From NCBI GenBank assembly GCA_017881685.1, contig JADGQR010000137.1, forward strand, positions 1 through 34,320: DNA of 34,320 nt. The letters are read 5' to 3'. The notes under the pieces were generated by a model, which ran no database searches, was not told the origin of the DNA, and saw only the letters and a list, made by a program, of their open reading frames with translations. The position numbers and the translations under genes were made by a program. Shown one piece after another: positions 6,047-33,103 of this stretch; the stretch's first letter is position 1; each line of letters starts with the position of its first letter. The DNA comes from Gemmatimonadaceae bacterium (GTDB lineage: Bacteria > Gemmatimonadota > Gemmatimonadetes > Gemmatimonadales > Gemmatimonadaceae).

Positions 6047-7609
6047 ATGCTGTTTCGAAAGCTTCGCATACTAACCGTAATCCTTCTCGCATCTGTTGCC
6101 GCTGCTCCAGTCCAGTCACAGACGAGAACGAAGAAGAAGACCACAAGCTCCGCTACACGACGCCGCGCTGCTGCGAAGAAAGCGGCGTCATCCAAGAAGT
6201 CTCGCAGGGCGGCAAAGACGCCAGCCGCTCCTGCGGTAAGCTCGACGGCACCCCGGACCGTCGCATCGCTGATGTCGGACATGACGTCGATGGCCGGACG
6301 GATTCGGAGCGGCAAGTTCGGGATCATGGCCATCTCGCTGACTCGGGGAGACACGCTCTTTTCCGAAAATGCTGGAACGGCGCTCATGCCGGCTTCGACC
6401 ATGAAGATGTTGACGAGCGCCGTGGCATTCGAGCGACTCGGTCCTTCATACCAGTTCAGCACGGATGTGCTGCACGATGGCACTCTCGGGCCTGACGGAA
6501 CGCTTTCGGGAAATCTCTACCTGAGAGGAGACGGCGATCCGTCGTTGTCAGGTCGTTACATGCCGGGCGGTCCGAGTGCACCAATGAATTATCTGGCCGA
6601 TCAGCTCGCGAGCCGCGGTGTGAAGCGAGTTACGGGCGATGTTATCGGAGACGCGTCAGCATTCGACGATCAGAAGATTCCCGAGGGATGGCTGACCAGA
6701 TATCTCCAGGCGGGGTACGCTGCTCGAGTATCGGGACTGTCGTTGAACGAGAATCTCGTGTGGGTGACAGTTACTCCCGATGGCGCGAAGCTCGAGCCGG
6801 CGACGAGCGCGATCCCGCTCATCAGCAACGTGAAGACGGTCGCCGGAAGCGGAGCAAGTCTTTCGGTGCGTCGTCAGGGTGACGGGACGATTCTCGTTTC
6901 CGGCCGCATCGGATCGAACTCGCCTCCGCGCCGTTACGAGTACGTAGTCGAGGATCCTGCGACGTTTGCTACTGGAGCGTTGAAAGCGGCACTCGTCGCC
7001 AGAGGTATTGCCGTAGACGGAAATATTCGTCTCGGCATCACTCCGGCGACGGCCGCAAAGATCGCAAGCATCCAGTCTCCCACGCTCGACCGCATCATCT
7101 CAGCGATGAACCGCGAAAGCATCAATCACTTCGCAGAGTTGTTGATGCGTGATGCCGCGAGGGGACCGCGACATGAAAAGCAGGGGAACGTCGCGAATGG
7201 CCAGGCATTGCTCCGCAACTTCTTCGCGACACGCGTCGGCGCTGACACCATGACGCTCGAGGTCCATGATGGAAGCGGCTTGTCTACTCTCGATCGGGTT
7301 ACGCCGCGCGAGATGGTGCAGATGCTGGCGTACGCGCACAATGCGAGCTGGGGCCCGTGGTTTCATGCGTCGCTTCCGGTCGCAGGAGAATCGGAGCTGT
7401 TGAAGCGCCGGATGCGGGGAGGCGCGGCTCAAGGCAACCTCCACGCGAAGACCGGAACGACGAACGATGTAATCGGACTCGGCGGCTATGTTACCGCACT
7501 GAACGGGGAAGTGATTGCGTTCTCGTTCATCTACAACGGCAACGATCGCTGGACCGCCAAGTCGATGATCGATGTGATGGGTGCAACACTCGCCAACTTC
7601 GCCAGATAG
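6047..7609 (+). CDS. dacB: D-alanyl-D-alanine carboxypeptidase/endopeptidase, PBP4 type (peptidase S13)
   Basis: A periplasmic penicillin-binding protein that trims or cleaves peptidoglycan peptides. A signal peptide (about 1-24, ending near VQSQ) is followed by an unusually basic Lys/Arg/Ala/Ser-rich stretch (27-60). The active-site motifs are all present: S117-T-M-K120, S358-I-N360 (in MNRESINHFAE) and K468-T-G470. DGSGLS at 408-413 is also typical of S13 enzymes. The 520 residues fit the family. The basic segment, rich in AAKK and RR, is low-complexity and may bind the wall or nucleic acid; that is inference. A large inverted repeat follows eight bases after the stop. Confidence 0.93.
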   Translation: MLFRKLRILTVILLASVAAAPVQSQTRTKKKTTSSATRRRAAAKKAASSKKSRRAAKTPAAPAVSSTAPRTVASLMSDMTSMAGRIRSGKFGIMAISLTRGDTLFSENAGTALMPASTMKMLTSAVAFERLGPSYQFSTDVLHDGTLGPDGTLSGNLYLRGDGDPSLSGRYMPGGPSAPMNYLADQLASRGVKRVTGDVIGDASAFDDQKIPEGWLTRYLQAGYAARVSGLSLNENLVWVTVTPDGAKLEPATSAIPLISNVKTVAGSGASLSVRRQGDGTILVSGRIGSNSPPRRYEYVVEDPATFATGALKAALVARGIAVDGNIRLGITPATAAKIASIQSPTLDRIISAMNRESINHFAELLMRDAARGPRHEKQGNVANGQALLRNFFATRVGADTMTLEVHDGSGLSTLDRVTPREMVQMLAYAHNASWGPWFHASLPVAGESELLKRRMRGGAAQGNLHAKTGTTNDVIGLGGYVTALNGEVIAFSFIYNGNDRWTAKSMIDVMGATLANFAR

Positions 7610-7617
7610 GAACTACA

Positions 7618-7727
7618 AACCCAGAGAGTCCGGAGTTTTCAGATTGGAGTGTTGAGTCGTGAGTATTGAGTGACTCAAAACTCAATCACTCAAGACTTAT
7701 GACTGAAAACTCCGGACTCTCTGGGTT
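7618..7727. terminator. 110-base palindromic element between convergent genes (copy 1)
   Basis: Perfect 25-base inverted arms at 7618-7642 and 7703-7727 (cores GAGAGTCCGGAG and CTCCGGACTCTC) enclose about 60 bases made of repeated TGAGT words on the left and ACTCA words on the right, which can pair in part. The right arm runs into the stop codon of the minus-strand gene. In minus-strand transcripts the stem is followed by TTTGTAGTT. The most likely job is a bidirectional terminator for dacB and the dehydrogenase. A second copy lies at 17712-17833. Confidence 0.85.
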
Positions 7728-8878
7728 CATGATTCCTGACTCTCTCTGATGTGAATGCCTCGCCTGCCGAGCTCGCTGATGTACTTCTCAGCGGGGATGC
7801 ATTCGTCGGGAGTGTGAACTCCCGGCGGCGTGACTTCGCCGCGCGCCTGCATCTGCCCGGTAATTGAAAGAGAATATCCTGTCGTACGCATCATTGCGCT
7901 GATGCCGCGCTCTTCGTCGTAGCGATCAACGAGCTCGAACGTGATGGTTTTGTCCTTTCCGTCTTTCTGCCCTTTCACGGTCACTCGCAGCGCGACGAGG
8001 TCCTTGCTCTGCGGCTTGGTGAGGCGGGGACCCATTGCCGCAACTGCGACATCGCGTGGAGAAACCATCACGCCCTTCACTTCGATGGGCTCGAGCTCCA
8101 GAAGACCCAGATCGCGGACTGCTTCCATGATCTTCGCGTGGCCGGGATAGCGAAGAGTCTTGTACTCCATCGTCGGAATCTTTCCTTCGTATCTGAACGC
8201 CATCGTCGACAGCCCGCCGGCGGTGTGAAACGCTTCCAGATCTCCGACCGGCGCGTCGAAATGCACCGGCTCGAGCTCTGACAGCGCTTTCACGTGCGCT
8301 CGTTTCCCATTTCGCACGACCCACGACAACGTCGTGTAGTAATCGAGTACGCCTTCGAGCGAGTAGACGATCTGGTAGTTGAGCGGTCCTTCAGGATGCT
8401 GAGGCAATCCCCCGACGAATATCTTCACCTCATCGACCTTGTCGAGCTCATCGATTCCGCGCTGCGCAAGAATGTTCACCATTCCCGGAGCGAGCCCGCA
8501 GTCGGGAATGATCGTTATGCCTTTTGCGCGAGCGCGCGCGTCGAGCTTCTTCTGCTCGAAGACGATGTCAGTATTTCCACCGAGGTCGCAGAAGTGAACA
8601 CCGCACTCCGCCGCGAGCGTGGCGAGCTCGAGATTGAAGTAGTAAGGGATCGCGCTCATCACGGCGTCGGATTGCCGCATCAGCGCGCGAACTGCATCCT
8701 TGTCCCTCACGTCTACCGCAGTGGGAATGAGTCGCTTGCCCGAATAAGGCGCAAGAAAGTGAGCGACGTGTCCGACATCGATGTCGGCGAGCCTTACTGT
8801 CGTGACTTCGTCGTTCTGAAGCAGATCATAAGCACAAGCGGAGCCTTGCAGCCCCGCGCCAAGTACGAGCATTCGCAT
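7727..8878 (-). CDS. Saccharopine dehydrogenase family protein (lysine 6-dehydrogenase-like)
   Basis: A 383-residue cytoplasmic NAD(P)-dependent oxidoreductase. The N-terminal Rossmann motif GAGLQGSACA (7-16), followed by LADIDV at the second strand end, and the segments DLGGNTDIV and IIPDCGLAPGMVN are characteristic of the saccharopine dehydrogenase/lysine 6-dehydrogenase group. The catalytic domain (about 130-310) includes GGLPQHPEGPLNYQIVYS and YEGKIPTMEYKTLRYPGH. Family members deaminate the epsilon amino group of lysine or handle saccharopine; which substrate applies here cannot be read from sequence. GGAG lies nine bases before the ATG at 8878; a second in-frame ATG at 8872 would be too far from it. 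Confidence 0.85.
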   Translation of the reverse strand: MRMLVLGAGLQGSACAYDLLQNDEVTTVRLADIDVGHVAHFLAPYSGKRLIPTAVDVRDKDAVRALMRQSDAVMSAIPYYFNLELATLAAECGVHFCDLGGNTDIVFEQKKLDARARAKGITIIPDCGLAPGMVNILAQRGIDELDKVDEVKIFVGGLPQHPEGPLNYQIVYSLEGVLDYYTTLSWVVRNGKRAHVKALSELEPVHFDAPVGDLEAFHTAGGLSTMAFRYEGKIPTMEYKTLRYPGHAKIMEAVRDLGLLELEPIEVKGVMVSPRDVAVAAMGPRLTKPQSKDLVALRVTVKGQKDGKDKTITFELVDRYDEERGISAMMRTTGYSLSITGQMQARGEVTPPGVHTPDECIPAEKYISELGRRGIHIRESQES

Positions 8879-14301: not shown

Positions 14302-17214
14302 CTAACTTATTGCCAGTCTAGGAGTTAGCGGCGTCCAACGGGGGTGATTGGCGGACAGCGGGAAATGGGCGCCAGGAAGCCCCTTTGCAGCCCGTGCCGA
14401 CGTCTCCAGGAGATGCGCGAATTCAAAGGGCGGCAGCGGGTAGGAAATGTGGAAGCCCTGACCAAGACCACACCCGAGTGTGCGCAGCCGCTCCCACTGT
14501 TCCCTCGTTTCGATTCCTTCCGCAACTACTCTCAGCCCGAGAATCCGGCCGAGTCCTATTACCGCCTCTGCAAGCGGTGACTTCGAGTTCTCTTCGCCGA
14601 GTCCGGCGATGAACGAGCGATCCATCTTGAGGCTGTCCACCGGGAACCGCTCGAGGTACGCGAGCGAGGAATACCCGGTCCCGAAATCGTCGATCGAAAG
14701 GCGAACGCCGAGTCCCTTGAGCGCGTGCAGTCGCTCGAGCGTGGCTCGATTGTCGTGAACGAGCATGCTCTCCGTCATCTCGAGTATGAGATGGCTTGGT
14801 GTCAATCCGGACCCTCGCAGCGAGTCGGCGACGTCGTGCACGACTCCGGGTTGTGACAGGTGCCGGCCCGAAAGATTTACGCCGACCATCAGCGACATTC
14901 CCGTTCCGCGAAGTATCTGCTGATACCGGAGCTGCCATTCGCGGGTTTGTCTGCATGCTTCCTGAACGACCCAGCGGCCCAATGGAACGATGAGTCCGGT
15001 TTCTTCGGCGAGAGAAATGAAGTCGAGCGGCTCGAGTAACCCGCGCTCCGGGTGCTGCCAGCGCACGAGTGCCTCGAATCCGAACATGCGGCCGGTTGAG
15101 AGTCTCGATATCGGCTGATAGAAGAGGACGAGGTTGCCCGTTTCGCGTTCTCCATTGATCGCTCGACGGAGTTCTGTCTCGAGCTCGAGTCGACGTCGTG
15201 CTGCGACGTGCATTTCGGGCTCGAAGCTCGCAGCGCACGCTTTTCCTTCTCCTTTCGCGCGGTAGAGTGCGAGGTCGGCATTGCGAAGGACGTCGTCAGC
15301 TCCCTGGTGCGGCAACATTGTCGCAATGCCGATGCTCATCGTCACGACAATGTCGGTGCCCTGCACCGAGAACGGTTCCATGAACGCTTCGAGAATTACA
15401 TCGGCGACCCGCATCGGCCGTGCAACTTCGTCGTCGAGAAGGACGGCGAACTCATCGCCGCCAAGTCGCGCGACCGTGTCCGCCGGACGAAGGCATGAGG
15501 TCAGCCGGCTCGCAACTTCAATGAGGAGCCAGTCGCCGGCAGAGTGTCCAAGCCCGTCGTTCACCGCCTTGAAATTGTCGAGATCGATGAAGAGCACGGC
15601 GGGTGATGCGGTTCCGCCGGCGGCTCGCTGGAGCGCGTGCTCGACGCGGTCCTTGAACAAAACGCGATTGGCCAGATTCGTCAGCGGATCGTGGAAAGCC
15701 TGATGCGCGAGCTGTTCCTCGAGCTGTTTTCGCTCGGTGACGTCGTGCAGAATCGACAGCACGCCGGCCCGACCGTTGTAGCTCACCGGCACTGAAGTGA
15801 CTTCGACCGCGAGCAGGCGCGTGTCGCCTATCTGATGAAACTGGCATTCCGCCGTGAGTGCGCGCGTGGGAACTCGTCCAAGCGAGGCGAGACTTTCGAG
15901 CAGGCGCGGTGCAGTCTCGGGCGTAATGAATCTCAGGAGCGGAGCTCCCAGCAACTTCTCTGGATCTGTGAAACCGAGCAGTGTCGCACAGGCCGGGTTT
16001 GCGTAGAGCATGCGGCCTTCGGCGTGAAGTGCGACTGCCTGCGGGGAATGCTCGACGAGATTTCGGAAGCGTGCCTCGCTTTCCTTCAGCGCCTCGGCCG
16101 CTGCTCTCGCTTCACTGACGTCACGGACAACCCAGAGAACGCGATCGTCGCTGAGAGGAGTGACGGTGCCGGCGAACCAGACCGTCTTGCCCGCAAGATC
16201 GAGTGGATACTCAATCTTGACTCGCTGGTTTGTATCGAGCGCTTGCGATATCGATCGCAGCGCGAGCCCTGCAACCGGAGCGGGAAGAACTTCATGTACG
16301 CGCTGCCCGAGCAACTTGTCGCGCGGACCGGAGAGAAGCTGATCATTGGTCGGAGATACCTTGTGGTAGCGTCCGTCGCGATCGAGGATGAAGAACACCT
16401 CGGGAATCGCGTTGAAGAGCGCAGCCTGCTCCGCCGCTGCTTCTTCCGCTATCGTGCGCGCGCGCTCTGCAGCTTCGATGGCGATTGCAAGATCGATGTT
16501 TGAACGCTCGAGCTCATCTGTCTGAGCCTGGAGCCTGTCTGACTGAACCTGGAGGCGGCTCGATTGTTCCAAAGCCTCGTTCGCCTGGTACATGAGACGA
16601 CGACTAAGACGATTGAACACCAGCAGAAGAATCAGCAGCTCCGCGAGTACCCCCGCTGTGGTAAGGACCGAGACAGTTCTCTCGTCACCCTGGCTTTCCG
16701 CATACCGTACGTCCTCGGCCAGCGTGAGTACGGCGAGGCGTGTCCGCAGAATGTCGAATCTCTTTCGCTGAGCTTCACGGCGTGAGTCCCTTCGACCGGA
16801 AATACTCTCGTCCCAGCGCACCTGTGCTTCGTGGATAGCAGTAATGTGATTTCTTCGCTCGGCGCTGTTGCCCGCTGCGCGTACCAGTGAATCCATGGTA
16901 GCGGAGAATCTTCTTGCAGCGGCAGTTGCTGCTTTTGTCTCTGGCCGGGTGGGAGACTCATTGAGGAGCGCCAGCTCACGCTCGACCGTGAGGACGTAGG
17001 CGGTGCGAGCAAGCCTGGAGACTTCGCGACTTTGTTCGACCAGATCGCTGGTGCGCTCGTGCGCGTAGTATGTGCCCCCGATCGTCGCCGCGATCGCGAC
17101 GAGCGCAATTGCAGCAACCGCAAATAAGCTGGTCGTTACTCCAACGATCTGCTTGCGAAGCAAATCGCCGGGGCGCTGCTGTCTTTGACCTTCGCGTGCG
17201 GGGGGTTCCATCAC
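14302..17214 (-). CDS. Membrane PAS-PAS-GGDEF-EAL signalling protein
   Basis: A 970-residue c-di-GMP protein. A first transmembrane helix (about 24-48), a helical periplasmic region (about 50-180) and a second helix (about 184-202) are followed by a coiled coil (210-265), two PAS domains (about 266-370 and 382-495), a GGDEF domain and an EAL domain. The cyclase motif GGDEF (585-589) is intact with an RxxD inhibitory site (576-579). The EAL domain keeps EAL 714-716, E812 (EMTES), DDFGTG 842-847, K863 and E899, so both activities look possible. The start is either GTG 17214, ten bases after AAGGAA, or ATG 17211. gyrA begins 88 bases downstream and has its own likely promoter. Confidence 0.94.
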   Translation of the reverse strand: MMEPPAREGQRQQRPGDLLRKQIVGVTTSLFAVAAIALVAIAATIGGTYYAHERTSDLVEQSREVSRLARTAYVLTVERELALLNESPTRPETKAATAAARRFSATMDSLVRAAGNSAERRNHITAIHEAQVRWDESISGRRDSRREAQRKRFDILRTRLAVLTLAEDVRYAESQGDERTVSVLTTAGVLAELLILLLVFNRLSRRLMYQANEALEQSSRLQVQSDRLQAQTDELERSNIDLAIAIEAAERARTIAEEAAAEQAALFNAIPEVFFILDRDGRYHKVSPTNDQLLSGPRDKLLGQRVHEVLPAPVAGLALRSISQALDTNQRVKIEYPLDLAGKTVWFAGTVTPLSDDRVLWVVRDVSEARAAAEALKESEARFRNLVEHSPQAVALHAEGRMLYANPACATLLGFTDPEKLLGAPLLRFITPETAPRLLESLASLGRVPTRALTAECQFHQIGDTRLLAVEVTSVPVSYNGRAGVLSILHDVTERKQLEEQLAHQAFHDPLTNLANRVLFKDRVEHALQRAAGGTASPAVLFIDLDNFKAVNDGLGHSAGDWLLIEVASRLTSCLRPADTVARLGGDEFAVLLDDEVARPMRVADVILEAFMEPFSVQGTDIVVTMSIGIATMLPHQGADDVLRNADLALYRAKGEGKACAASFEPEMHVAARRRLELETELRRAINGERETGNLVLFYQPISRLSTGRMFGFEALVRWQHPERGLLEPLDFISLAEETGLIVPLGRWVVQEACRQTREWQLRYQQILRGTGMSLMVGVNLSGRHLSQPGVVHDVADSLRGSGLTPSHLILEMTESMLVHDNRATLERLHALKGLGVRLSIDDFGTGYSSLAYLERFPVDSLKMDRSFIAGLGEENSKSPLAEAVIGLGRILGLRVVAEGIETREQWERLRTLGCGLGQGFHISYPLPPFEFAHLLETSARAAKGLPGAHFPLSANHPRWTPLTPRLAIS

Positions 17215-17415
17215 TCGGCGGTGTTTCCTTGTGAAGCTGAAAGCGGACGGCGAGCCAAACCCTGCGGGGTGGGCCGCCTAATGTTTCTCGTCAGAATGAC
17301 TGTGCAAGGTGATGTGGCGTCACAACATCCGTCTCTTGCCGGGATTCACGTGCTTCACGACTTTGATACGCGGTGCCGCTCAAGGCGGTTTCCTCAAACC
17401 ATTTCTGGCGAGACG

Positions 17416-17709
17416 ATGATCTTCAAATCGAGCAGGCTTACGTCGGGCAATCACATTTTCCGGACATCGCTCGATGTCGAAGGGCACCAGATCACGTTCC
17501 GTAAGCGGCGCTGGTTCGGATCGACGGAGGAGACGATCAACGTCGACCATATCTCGTCGGTGAGGGCACAACACGGGGTGATGTTCTCGTCGATTACGAT
17601 CGAGTCATCGGGTGGATCACAGCCGATTCAGATAACGGGGCTGCGGACGTCTGACGCCCGGGCGATTGAGGCAGCAATCAAGGCAGTACAGGCGCAGAAG
17701 GAGGGCTGA
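17416..17709 (+). CDS. Small PH-like domain protein
   Basis: 97 residues from the ATG at 17416; the frame is open further upstream to 17185 but that part overlaps the opposite gene and lacks any domain character. The sequence resembles a compact bacterial PH-like beta domain: alternating strands with ITFRKRRWFGSTEETINVDHISSV, then FSSITIESSGG and IQITGLRTSDARAIEAAIKAV as a closing helix. Such domains often occur in envelope or stress proteins; no specific function can be named. There is no signal peptide. The bases 17215-17415 upstream show no gene. The stop is two bases before the second large palindrome. Confidence 0.7.
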   Translation: MIFKSSRLTSGNHIFRTSLDVEGHQITFRKRRWFGSTEETINVDHISSVRAQHGVMFSSITIESSGGSQPIQITGLRTSDARAIEAAIKAVQAQKEG

Positions 17710-17711
17710 TA

Positions 17712-17833
17712 AAACCCAGAGAGTGCGGAGTTTTCAGGAAGGAGTCATTGAGTCTTGAGTCTTGAGTTTCTGGCTGCATTCCAAACTCAGAACTCGATCA
17801 CTCTACTCTGAAGACTCCGCACTCTCTGGGTTT
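17712..17833. terminator. 122-base palindromic element between convergent genes (copy 2)
   Basis: Arms of 26 bases (17712-17737 and 17808-17833) pair with one G:U-type mismatch. The core is GAGAGTGCGGAG with CTCCGCACTCTC opposite, so relative to copy 1 a C:G pair has become G:C on both sides. The interior again holds TGAGT words (three CTTGAGT-like units) then ACTC words. TTTGTCTTTT follows in the plus direction and TTTTATC in the minus direction, which suits a bidirectional intrinsic terminator. Confidence 0.87.
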
Positions 17834-17838
17834 GTCTT

Positions 17839-18639
17839 TTAGTGCGCCGGCCCCCGATATCCTGCCGCCTCGGCTTCATCCTCGAGGTCCAATTGCGCGT
17901 TGTCCTTGTCAATCGCTTCGCGCTCAGCACGGTAGCGGTTGTACCACTCGCGCGTCACTTCGCCGGCCAGCTCTCTGTTGCCAAGTCCGAACGAGAGTGC
18001 GATCGCGAGAGCGATGGCACCGAAGAGAATCGCGAACGCAGTAGTGACGATCTCGCTCGCGACGCCAAGCTCCTGAAGCGCCATGAATACCGCGAGGACA
18101 ATTACTCCGCCCTTGCCTACTCGCGAAAGCGTCGGTCCGCCGTGCAGTCCGCCGGCGCTGGCCATGATCAGTCCGCCGACAAATCCGCCAAGCACGATGC
18201 CGACAATGATGATCACGATCGCAGCGATCACACTCGGGATGTAGCTCACCAGCTCGCTGAACACGTTGGCCAGTGACTGAAGACCGAGCGCGTTGGCAGC
18301 AACGAGCATCACCGTGAACATCACGAACCAGAACACCAGGTTCGAAGCGATACGCGTTGGGTTGATGTGCGACCCTGCTCGCTCCATCGCGTCCATCACG
18401 CCGCCGCGCTCAAGCAGCTGATTGAAGCGGATCCGCCGGAGAACCTTCTCCGTCCCTTTCTCGAAGAGACGCGCCAGAAGATAACCAGCGAAAAGAATTA
18501 CCAGCGCTCCGACCAGTGCCGGAACGTACTGATATAGTTGTGAGAAGCTGTCCTGAAGCCGGTCGCCGAAGTTCTGAGTCGTGTCGCCCACGGTATTGCT
18601 CTGGAATGAGGTGCGGAGGAACAGGCTTAACAATAGCAA
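17839..18639 (-). CDS. Conserved TM-helix (MscS-related) membrane protein
   Basis: A membrane protein of up to 266 residues with helices near 37-57, 98-118, 130-160, 175-192 and 198-222. Paired Gly/Ala-rich helices such as LVGALVILFAGYLLARLFEKG and VIAAIVIIIVGIVLGGFVGGL, the link RIRFNQLLERGG, and the end LSFGLGNRELAGEVTREW match the conserved TM-helix repeat family related to small mechanosensitive channels, although no MscS beta domain follows. The tail is charged. The start is uncertain: TTG 18639 sits just after a stem-loop and has no ribosome site; TTG 18633 or GTG 18591 are alternatives. Role in osmotic response is inference. Confidence 0.8.
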   Translation of the reverse strand: MLLLSLFLRTSFQSNTVGDTTQNFGDRLQDSFSQLYQYVPALVGALVILFAGYLLARLFEKGTEKVLRRIRFNQLLERGGVMDAMERAGSHINPTRIASNLVFWFVMFTVMLVAANALGLQSLANVFSELVSYIPSVIAAIVIIIVGIVLGGFVGGLIMASAGGLHGGPTLSRVGKGGVIVLAVFMALQELGVASEIVTTAFAILFGAIALAIALSFGLGNRELAGEVTREWYNRYRAEREAIDKDNAQLDLEDEAEAAGYRGPAH

Positions 18640-29559: not shown

Positions 29560-29665
29560 CGTGCCGCGTGGCGCGTGACGTGTGGCGCGTGACGTGGCTG
29601 TTAGCGATTAGCAGAACTAGCTATTCAGCTATTGGCAGCAGTCAGCAGTCAGCAGTCAGCGCGTT
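29560..29665. repeat. Word-repeat region between convergent genes
   Basis: Two tandem copies of GTGGCGCGTGACGT (29568-29581, 29582-29595) are followed by an imperfect hairpin of TAGC and GCTA words (about 29596-29638), then 3.4 copies of AGCAGTC (29637-29660). No gene is present. The region separates the DUF1501 and PBP1A stops. Unlike the other convergent gaps it has no long perfect stem, though the imperfect hairpin may still serve as a terminator. Confidence 0.75.
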
Positions 29666-32925: not shown

Positions 32926-33103
32926 TGAAAGGGTTCGGGTTGGAGAGACCGAAGAGACTGAAGAAACTGCAAAACAGATAAGAACAATTTTTGGGTTTAT
33001 CAATCCGCATGCGCGGGACTATCTCGCGCCACGAAGTGACGAACCCAATTTTTTTTCCGCCTTTTCTTCGGTCTCTTCGGTCTCTCCAACCCGAACGCTT
33101 TCA
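32926..33103. terminator. Large palindrome with 41-base arms between convergent genes
   Basis: Arms 32926-32966 and 33063-33103 pair over 41 bases with two mismatches, one of them G:U-compatible. Between them (32967-33062) lie a second small pairing of TTGGGTT with AACCCAA and a GCGCGGGA/TCTCGCGC pairing. The left arm repeats GAGACCGAA-type words. The direct CAC trinucleotide at 32923-32925 and 33104-33106 flanks the arms, so a decayed miniature inverted-repeat element is an alternative to a terminator. No ORF is carried. Confidence 0.82.

Follow-up and report, generated by a model that had tools for sequence, protein, structure and literature searches.

A dispersed family of palindromic repeats, mostly between convergent genes, of a Gemmatimonadaceae genome, with a possible role as a two-way 3'-end signal

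The window analysed here, that is, the whole stretch of 34,320 nucleotides from contig JADGQR010000137.1, is a single contig of the draft genome of an uncultured Gemmatimonadaceae bacterium (G000; 3.37 Mb in 341 contigs, 84% complete). Its nearest named relatives by protein comparison, at 82% identity for the S13 peptidase, are metagenome-assembled genomes of the Gemmatimonadaceae. Two long palindromes, copy 1 and copy 2, were found by sequence inspection and inverted-repeat search where the earlier note had placed them, each in a gap between convergent genes (Table 1). They are the strongest inverted repeats of the window, one other long one excepted, and on either strand their fold z-scores range from -8.0 to -13.0, with none of 200 dinucleotide-preserving shuffles equalling them. 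The arm word occurs four times in the window, compared to 0.31 expected by chance. Both copies fill their gaps as tightly as had been described. Copy 1 begins 7 bases past the peptidase stop (7609), and at its other end the final base of the stem falls on the stop codon (7727-7729) of the minus-strand saccharopine dehydrogenase gene, while copy 2 starts 2 bases past the left stop (17709) and finishes 5 bases short of the right one (17839). The TGAGT and ACTCA words of both interiors were also confirmed in the sequence, as was the compensated base pair between the copies, C7630:G7715 in copy 1 and G17725:C17820 in copy 2.

Table 1. Palindromic elements in the window, their parts, and the genes that flank them.
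Feature	Coordinates	Strand	Evidence
D-Ala-D-Ala carboxypeptidase (peptidase S13), left of copy 1	6047..7609	+	Pfam PF02113, E 1.3e-90
Copy 1, whole element	7617..7727		Inverted repeat; fold z -11.7 / -13.0; covariance-model match 106.7 bits on +
Copy 1, left outer arm AAACCCAGAGAGTCCGGAGTTTTCAG, units AGAGAGT-CCGGAGT-TTTCAG	7617..7642		Sequence, alignment
Copy 1, C of the compensated pair	7630..7630		Alignment
Copy 1, interior: left GAGT words, right ACTC words, hypervariable bases between	7643..7702		Sequence, alignment
Copy 1, right outer arm CTGAAAACTCCGGACTCTCTGGGTT	7703..7727		Sequence
Saccharopine dehydrogenase family protein, right of copy 1	7727..8878	-	Pfam PF16653 / PF03435
Bacterial PH-domain protein, left of copy 2	17185..17709	+	Pfam PF03703, E 5e-5
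Copy 2, whole element	17712..17833		Inverted repeat; fold z -8.8 / -8.0; covariance-model match 122.1 bits on +
Copy 2, left outer arm AAACCCAGAGAGTGCGGAGTTTTCAG	17712..17737		Sequence
Copy 2, G of the compensated pair	17725..17725		Alignment
Copy 2, right outer arm CTGAAGACTCCGCACTCTCTGGGTTT	17808..17833		Sequence
Mechanosensitive-channel TM-helix protein, right of copy 2	17839..18639	-	Pfam PF05552

Other repeats were seen in the same window and genome. A third long hairpin, at 32926-33103 in what appears to be a convergent gap, has 41-nt arms that are 95% complementary and a 96-nt loop with 9-base units of the GAGACCGAA type, its words being unlike those of copies 1 and 2. The convergent gap at 29560-29665, flanked by a DUF1501 gene and a penicillin-binding protein, is filled by two kinds of 7-base repeat (GCGTGAC / GTGTGGC and GCAGTCA) without a strong hairpin (z -1.7). 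Arrays of the 9-base units CACAGAGAC / GGTCTCTGT, often palindromic, recur in convergent gaps of G000 (L089:13559-13891, L095:4667-5012, and L095:10632-10761) and of the genome G040 (L107, L112, and L103). The tandem gap at L089:16044-16236 holds a palindrome that is very strong (z -15) and belongs, with its GATGGCACAGATG words, to yet another family.

Searching G000 first with the arm word and then with a covariance model built from 11 copies recovered a dispersed family, as had been anticipated, with 12 full copies (contigs C62, C79, C157, C171, C207, C212, C281, C307 with two, C318, C18, and C64) and a set of partial or variant members: a longer variant on C154, a related, re-worded one on C257, one cut by the contig edge on C76, half-copies on C21 (left arm) and C211 (right arm), and a copy on C100 that is interrupted by an IS3-family element. 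From CCC to GGG the elements measure 106-202 bp, usually about 110-130, with the consensus ends TAAACCC...GGGTTT, and in the alignment their outer arms are nearly identical across all full copies, that is, they are terminal inverted repeats. The loop word TGCAACCAG of C171 and C64 reads CTGGTTGCA or CTGGCTGCA in C212, C318, and the second copy of C307 (C307b), and alignment over the whole element also favours a flipped orientation for pairs of the C171/C64 versus C212/C318/C307b type. It is evident that these elements have been copied as whole units in both orientations, which upholds the earlier suggestion of a repeat copied around the genome. An extra unit of about 7 bases is present on both arms of C154 and of its relative C100. 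The paired outer arms were absent from every other genome in the GTDB-based contig collection searched and the arm pattern had no match among the viral contigs searched, so a family common to other GTDB genomes or viruses was rejected. A known RNA family was rejected as well, the window having no Rfam match above the gathering score.

Dispersal of whole units in both orientations speaks for a tolerated selfish repeat, MITE- or REP-like, which would survive only where it is harmless and whose hairpin would be a substrate for mobilisation and not a terminator. Close species lack the family and have their own families instead, and two copies lie in divergent gaps (see below), both of which fit this explanation, as do the IS3-family element within one copy, an arrangement known for REPs (PMC1525189), and the convergent or 3' location that is typical of REPs too (PMC3733652). 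We nevertheless consider a purely selfish repeat possible but on the unlikely side. No transposase could be tied to the family by a Y1_Tnp search of five genomes, and no mobilising enzyme was identified there: G018, G023, G040, and G022 yielded no Y1_Tnp gene, and the only one in G000 has no palindrome match in its 2.4-kb locus, for which reason mobilisation by a RAYT was rejected. Furthermore, conserved words beside hypervariable bases, most sharply in G023 (see below), are unlike the outcome of recent neutral copying. The single Y1_Tnp gene of G000 (L206, contig C196) is IS200-like/RAYT-type and encodes more than 300 aa with a C-terminal extension.

An autonomous partner with the same ends was not seen in the 84%-complete G000 either. 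The 1.4 kb between the arms of C100 was rejected in that role, being an IS3-type element (orfA + orfB, at about 150-1460 of L029) that has its own ends and sits in the palindrome loop. The left half of the C100 palindrome matches C154 and the right half does not, and since the two halves do not match one copy C100 looks like an IS-associated rearrangement. No flanking target-site duplication was evident by eye, the copy-1 gaps of the congeners being too divergent to serve as empty sites.

The convergent position of the window copies extends to the family. Nine of the 11 full copies with both neighbours called lie in convergent gaps (the call for C62 involving a weakly scored left gene at the contig end) and two in divergent ones, whereas only 17 of the 72 gaps with a length of 40-350 bp are convergent in a G000 sample of 200 kb (binomial p = 8e-5), so the expected concentration between convergent genes was borne out. 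Most full copies have a stop codon no more than about 15 bases away. The refuting outcome named in the earlier note, no further copies or copies inside genes, did not occur: the further copies are intergenic, with the exception of one C64 arm, which extends about 36 bases into the end of a predicted gene. The two copies in divergent gaps are those of C79 (M48 peptidase / hydrolase) and C318 (xseB / methyltransferase); the former has two predicted start codons about 50 bases away, and in such a place a terminator would do harm, unless the start codons were wrongly called. The only members in tandem gaps are the two half-copies, which lack the hairpin, one of them separating the E2 and E3 genes of a 2-oxoacid dehydrogenase complex. 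Hairpin-less halves as the sole occupants of tandem gaps are what the polarity of an intact hairpin would predict, which is only suggestive with n = 2. In the families of G018 and G023 a stop codon is found within about 60 bases in 18 of 19 elements; many of these elements sit in tandem gaps behind the stop, and convergent-only placement for all such families was therefore rejected. Integron attC sites are also imperfect palindromes located behind stop codons. Here an attC site was judged unlikely, as the ends are different and the copies lie dispersed among housekeeping genes.

Hairpins in convergent gaps are in themselves ordinary. In sampled genome stretches, and taking z < -4 as a strong hairpin, one was present in 59% of the convergent gaps, 14% of the tandem ones, and 0% of the divergent ones in the 200-kb sample of G000, similar to the 56, 12, and 0% obtained by the same method for a sample of E. 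coli K-12, whose convergent gaps contain known terminators. The convergent fraction was 67% in the G040 sample, 43% in G022, 32% in G023, and 8% (1/12) in the close relative G013. This last value, together with the five congeners that lack the element at the copy-1 junction, indicates that a hairpin is not obligatory there.

It is the period-7 arrays, and not the hairpins of convergent gaps, that constitute the unusual feature. They were present in 32/175 sampled gaps of G023 and 20/49 of G022, compared to none of 44 in E. coli, with almost none at neighbouring lags, and in the first two genomes they are near-exact tandem 7-mers of many different words. They thus occupy 18-41% of the intergenic gaps in the stretches sampled from these two genomes (L115-L118, L221-L240, L254-L260), with words that include GGCATCG, GACTAGT, and GCTATTG, and one G023 array precedes an apparent tRNA gene. 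Tandem gaps commonly hold these heptad arrays, which lie only a little nearer the stop (13/22 in G023 and 10/17 in G022). On a broader scale, 22 of the 179 Gemmatimonadaceae genomes had the pattern of palindromes with AGT units, a reversed-pattern control being rarer and giving lower counts, and a phylum-wide draw of 150 genomes gave 14 matches, all within the order of the host. The relatives G018 and G023 have families of their own, with a shared 7-base plan and other words.

The elements appear to turn over quickly. The copy-1 junction is found without a palindrome in the five congeners G006, G013, G003, G012, and G018, with gaps of 54, 19, 30, 0, and 40 bp, respectively, and in G015 its 195-bp gap contains an unrelated palindrome of the CACAGAATCACAGGAACACAG type, which argues that the element was gained by the host lineage. 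As for the copy-2 junction, the G000 bin includes, as some of its contigs, a second close strain, and C257 duplicates the junction with a channel protein 97% identical. Compared to 17712-17833, the C257 palindrome (L043) has the same AAACCCA / TGGGTTT ends and a core replaced on both arms, being about 7 bases longer per arm than copy 2; this points to strain mixture and to a natural core swap. Comparison of the two junctions indicates that elements are gained or rebuilt at the species level.

The arms are built of units of about 7 bases, mostly ending in AGT. In G000 the left arm carries AGAGAGT, CCGGAGT, TTTCAGT, nnACAGT, and several nnTGAGT at a spacing of 7 or 8 bases, and the right arm is the reverse complement of these units. 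Covariance-model matches gave AAACCC...CAGT-GGCGCGT-nGTGAGT-TTCCAGT... in G018 and GGGGAATCCAAGT-nnGGAGT-GTGGCAGT-nnGGAGT in G023. Mean pairwise identity in word versus spacer columns was 84 versus 45% in G000, 83 versus 54% in G018, and 97 versus 32% in G023, and since words and spacers were delimited on the same alignments the first two contrasts are partly circular, the third being too large for that. After the GGG of the stem base, T makes up 96, 75, and 88% of the first, second, and third positions, both ends pooled, and 25-54% beyond; the G023 family has no T-tract. No G-quadruplex-capable run of four GGG tracts was found in the G000 arms.

The earlier note had taken the compensated pair as a sign of selection or copying that preserves the stem. 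The pair itself is genuine, being C:G in eight of 11 aligned full copies, G:C in two (copy 2 and C18), and a broken G/G in one (C64), but compensation is neither universal nor widespread. Covariation over the whole G000 stem is modest (nine double-changed pairs against 5.4 in shuffles, 91.3 versus 88.7% of cells paired), and spacers pair across the stem no more than when shuffled among copies (51 versus 51% in G000, 50 versus 52% in G018, and 33 versus 34% in G023). A permutation test in the three families showed that arms match their own partner no better than arms from different copies (p, outer and inner parts, 0.24 and 0.05; 0.17 and 0.92; 0.77 and 0.10). The case for selection on pairing built on one compensated pair is weakened by these three tests, and selection on pairing alone is not demonstrated because the interior spacers do not covary. 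The dominant conserved signal is the words on each arm, with compensation as the exception.

This result bears on two further explanations. One is an array of protein-binding sites, in which AGT words inverted at the centre would be bound by a nucleoid, gyrase-like, or RNA-binding protein, the hairpin being a by-product; gyrase binding in gaps in which positive supercoils build up by convergent transcription, as with the BIMEs of E. coli, would be a known analogue. Conservation of arm words beside spacers that vary without compensation in all three families agrees with such an array, and so does the fact that arms fit a shared consensus rather than each other. We consider it quite improbable all the same, because the words change from species to species and a single genome can hold several sets of them, making one fixed recognition site unlikely, and no protein is pointed to by the data. 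The other is a functionless mutational product, with 7-base arrays grown by slippage and a palindrome kept by template switching (quasipalindrome correction), the paired C/G change being one correction event. The abundance of many-word period-7 arrays in G023 and G022 and their absence from the E. coli sample fit this origin, and slippage has been proposed for heptamer repeats (PMC4692102, PMC4679880); the extra unit on both arms of C154 and C100 also fits. Template switching, however, predicts the best match between an element's own arms, which was not observed, the spacers do not covary, and neither the convergent bias nor the recurrence of one outer arm at a dozen sites unrelated to each other would be explained, so we rate it as distinctly improbable. 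Still, the selfish repeat, the protein array, and slippage with template switching each account for part of the data and are serious rivals.

The explanation that we favour, at about an even chance, is a non-autonomous, species-specific palindromic repeat whose hairpin would serve as a bidirectional signal for transcription termination or 3'-end formation. Being palindromic, the element would present the RNA of either flanking gene with a long hairpin a few bases past the stop codon, an outer stem of about 25 bp followed by a word-paired interior, if such a structure forms in vivo. The likeliest effect of this hairpin would be to end both convergent transcripts, or else to set or stabilise their 3' ends, and each gene would then be spared antisense reading. 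Of the earlier proposal of a dispersed family of bidirectional terminators, the dispersed family and a terminator-like position and shape have stood, the activity itself being a prediction from sequence. One typical feature of intrinsic terminators, a stable GC-rich hairpin beside a stop codon, is present according to folding and the gap survey, and the GGG stem base with three mostly T positions at both ends resembles an intrinsic terminator of the bidirectional kind in a weak form. Against this reading, the T-tract is short in G000 (about 3) and missing in G023, where the mechanism would therefore have to work without one or consist of 3'-end protection. A wider version, that palindromes phased at 7 bases occur throughout the Gemmatimonadales as species-own families, built on one plan of conserved words, mostly AGT-ending, with free variation between them, spread by an undescribed word-reading system of mobilisation or copying, and reused by their hosts as two-way 3'-end signals, seems to us unlikely as it stands.

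If a bidirectional 3'-end signal is the right reading, gene-end signals in a little-studied phylum would be supplied by repeats of fast turnover and not by conserved terminators, as one gene pair, that of copy 1, carries the G000 element in one species, an unrelated palindrome in another, and nothing in others. Fixed words set against free, unpaired bases also provide a ready test that separates explanations by RNA structure, DNA recognition, and mutation, a question that is unsettled for bacterial palindromic repeats generally.

In the mainly open-access literature searched, nothing was found on such palindromes in Gemmatimonadota, and the nearest comparisons come from other bacteria. Ordinary bidirectional intrinsic terminators share with the G000 element the convergent gap, the GC-rich stem base, T on both sides, and the vicinity of stop codons, but the element is much longer, belongs to a repeated family, and has a weak T-tract. 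The ERIC sequences of enterobacteria, long imperfect intergenic palindromes of about 127 bp, are similar, comparing by description only, in size, imperfect palindromy, and intergenic location, although to our knowledge 7-base units and species-to-species replacement of words are not features of ERIC. REPs, with BIMEs and REPINs and their RAYT transposases, are 20-40 bp long with a GTAG or CGTC tag and commonly exceed 100 copies (PMC3733652, PMC3116915, PMC2817692). They resemble the G000 family in being dispersed, intergenic, and palindromic, with a convergent or 3' preference and as targets of IS3-family elements (PMC3733652, PMC1525189). The G000 elements, in contrast, have long arms, usually 110-130 bp in total, a tagless consensus, and about a dozen copies, and neither the 20-40 bp stem-loop, the GTAG/CGTC end tag, nor a flanking RAYT was found in them. 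Among published cases, the GGGAATC heptamer repeat of Xanthomonas comes closest (PMC4692102). This repeat and those of the GGGGATT type in Nostoc have period 7, are intergenic, and often lie less than 50 bases from a stop (Rehm et al. 2015, PMC4692102), and in Xanthomonas two convergent arrays often make an inverted repeat, with 70 and 75 cases in two genomes (PMC4692102). The 7-base period and the inverted pairs near stop codons are thus common to both systems (PMC4692102), but while Xanthomonas uses exact tandem units of one G-rich, G-quadruplex-capable word, G000 has degenerate units at 7-base spacing within a dispersed family of fixed outer arms and species-specific words.
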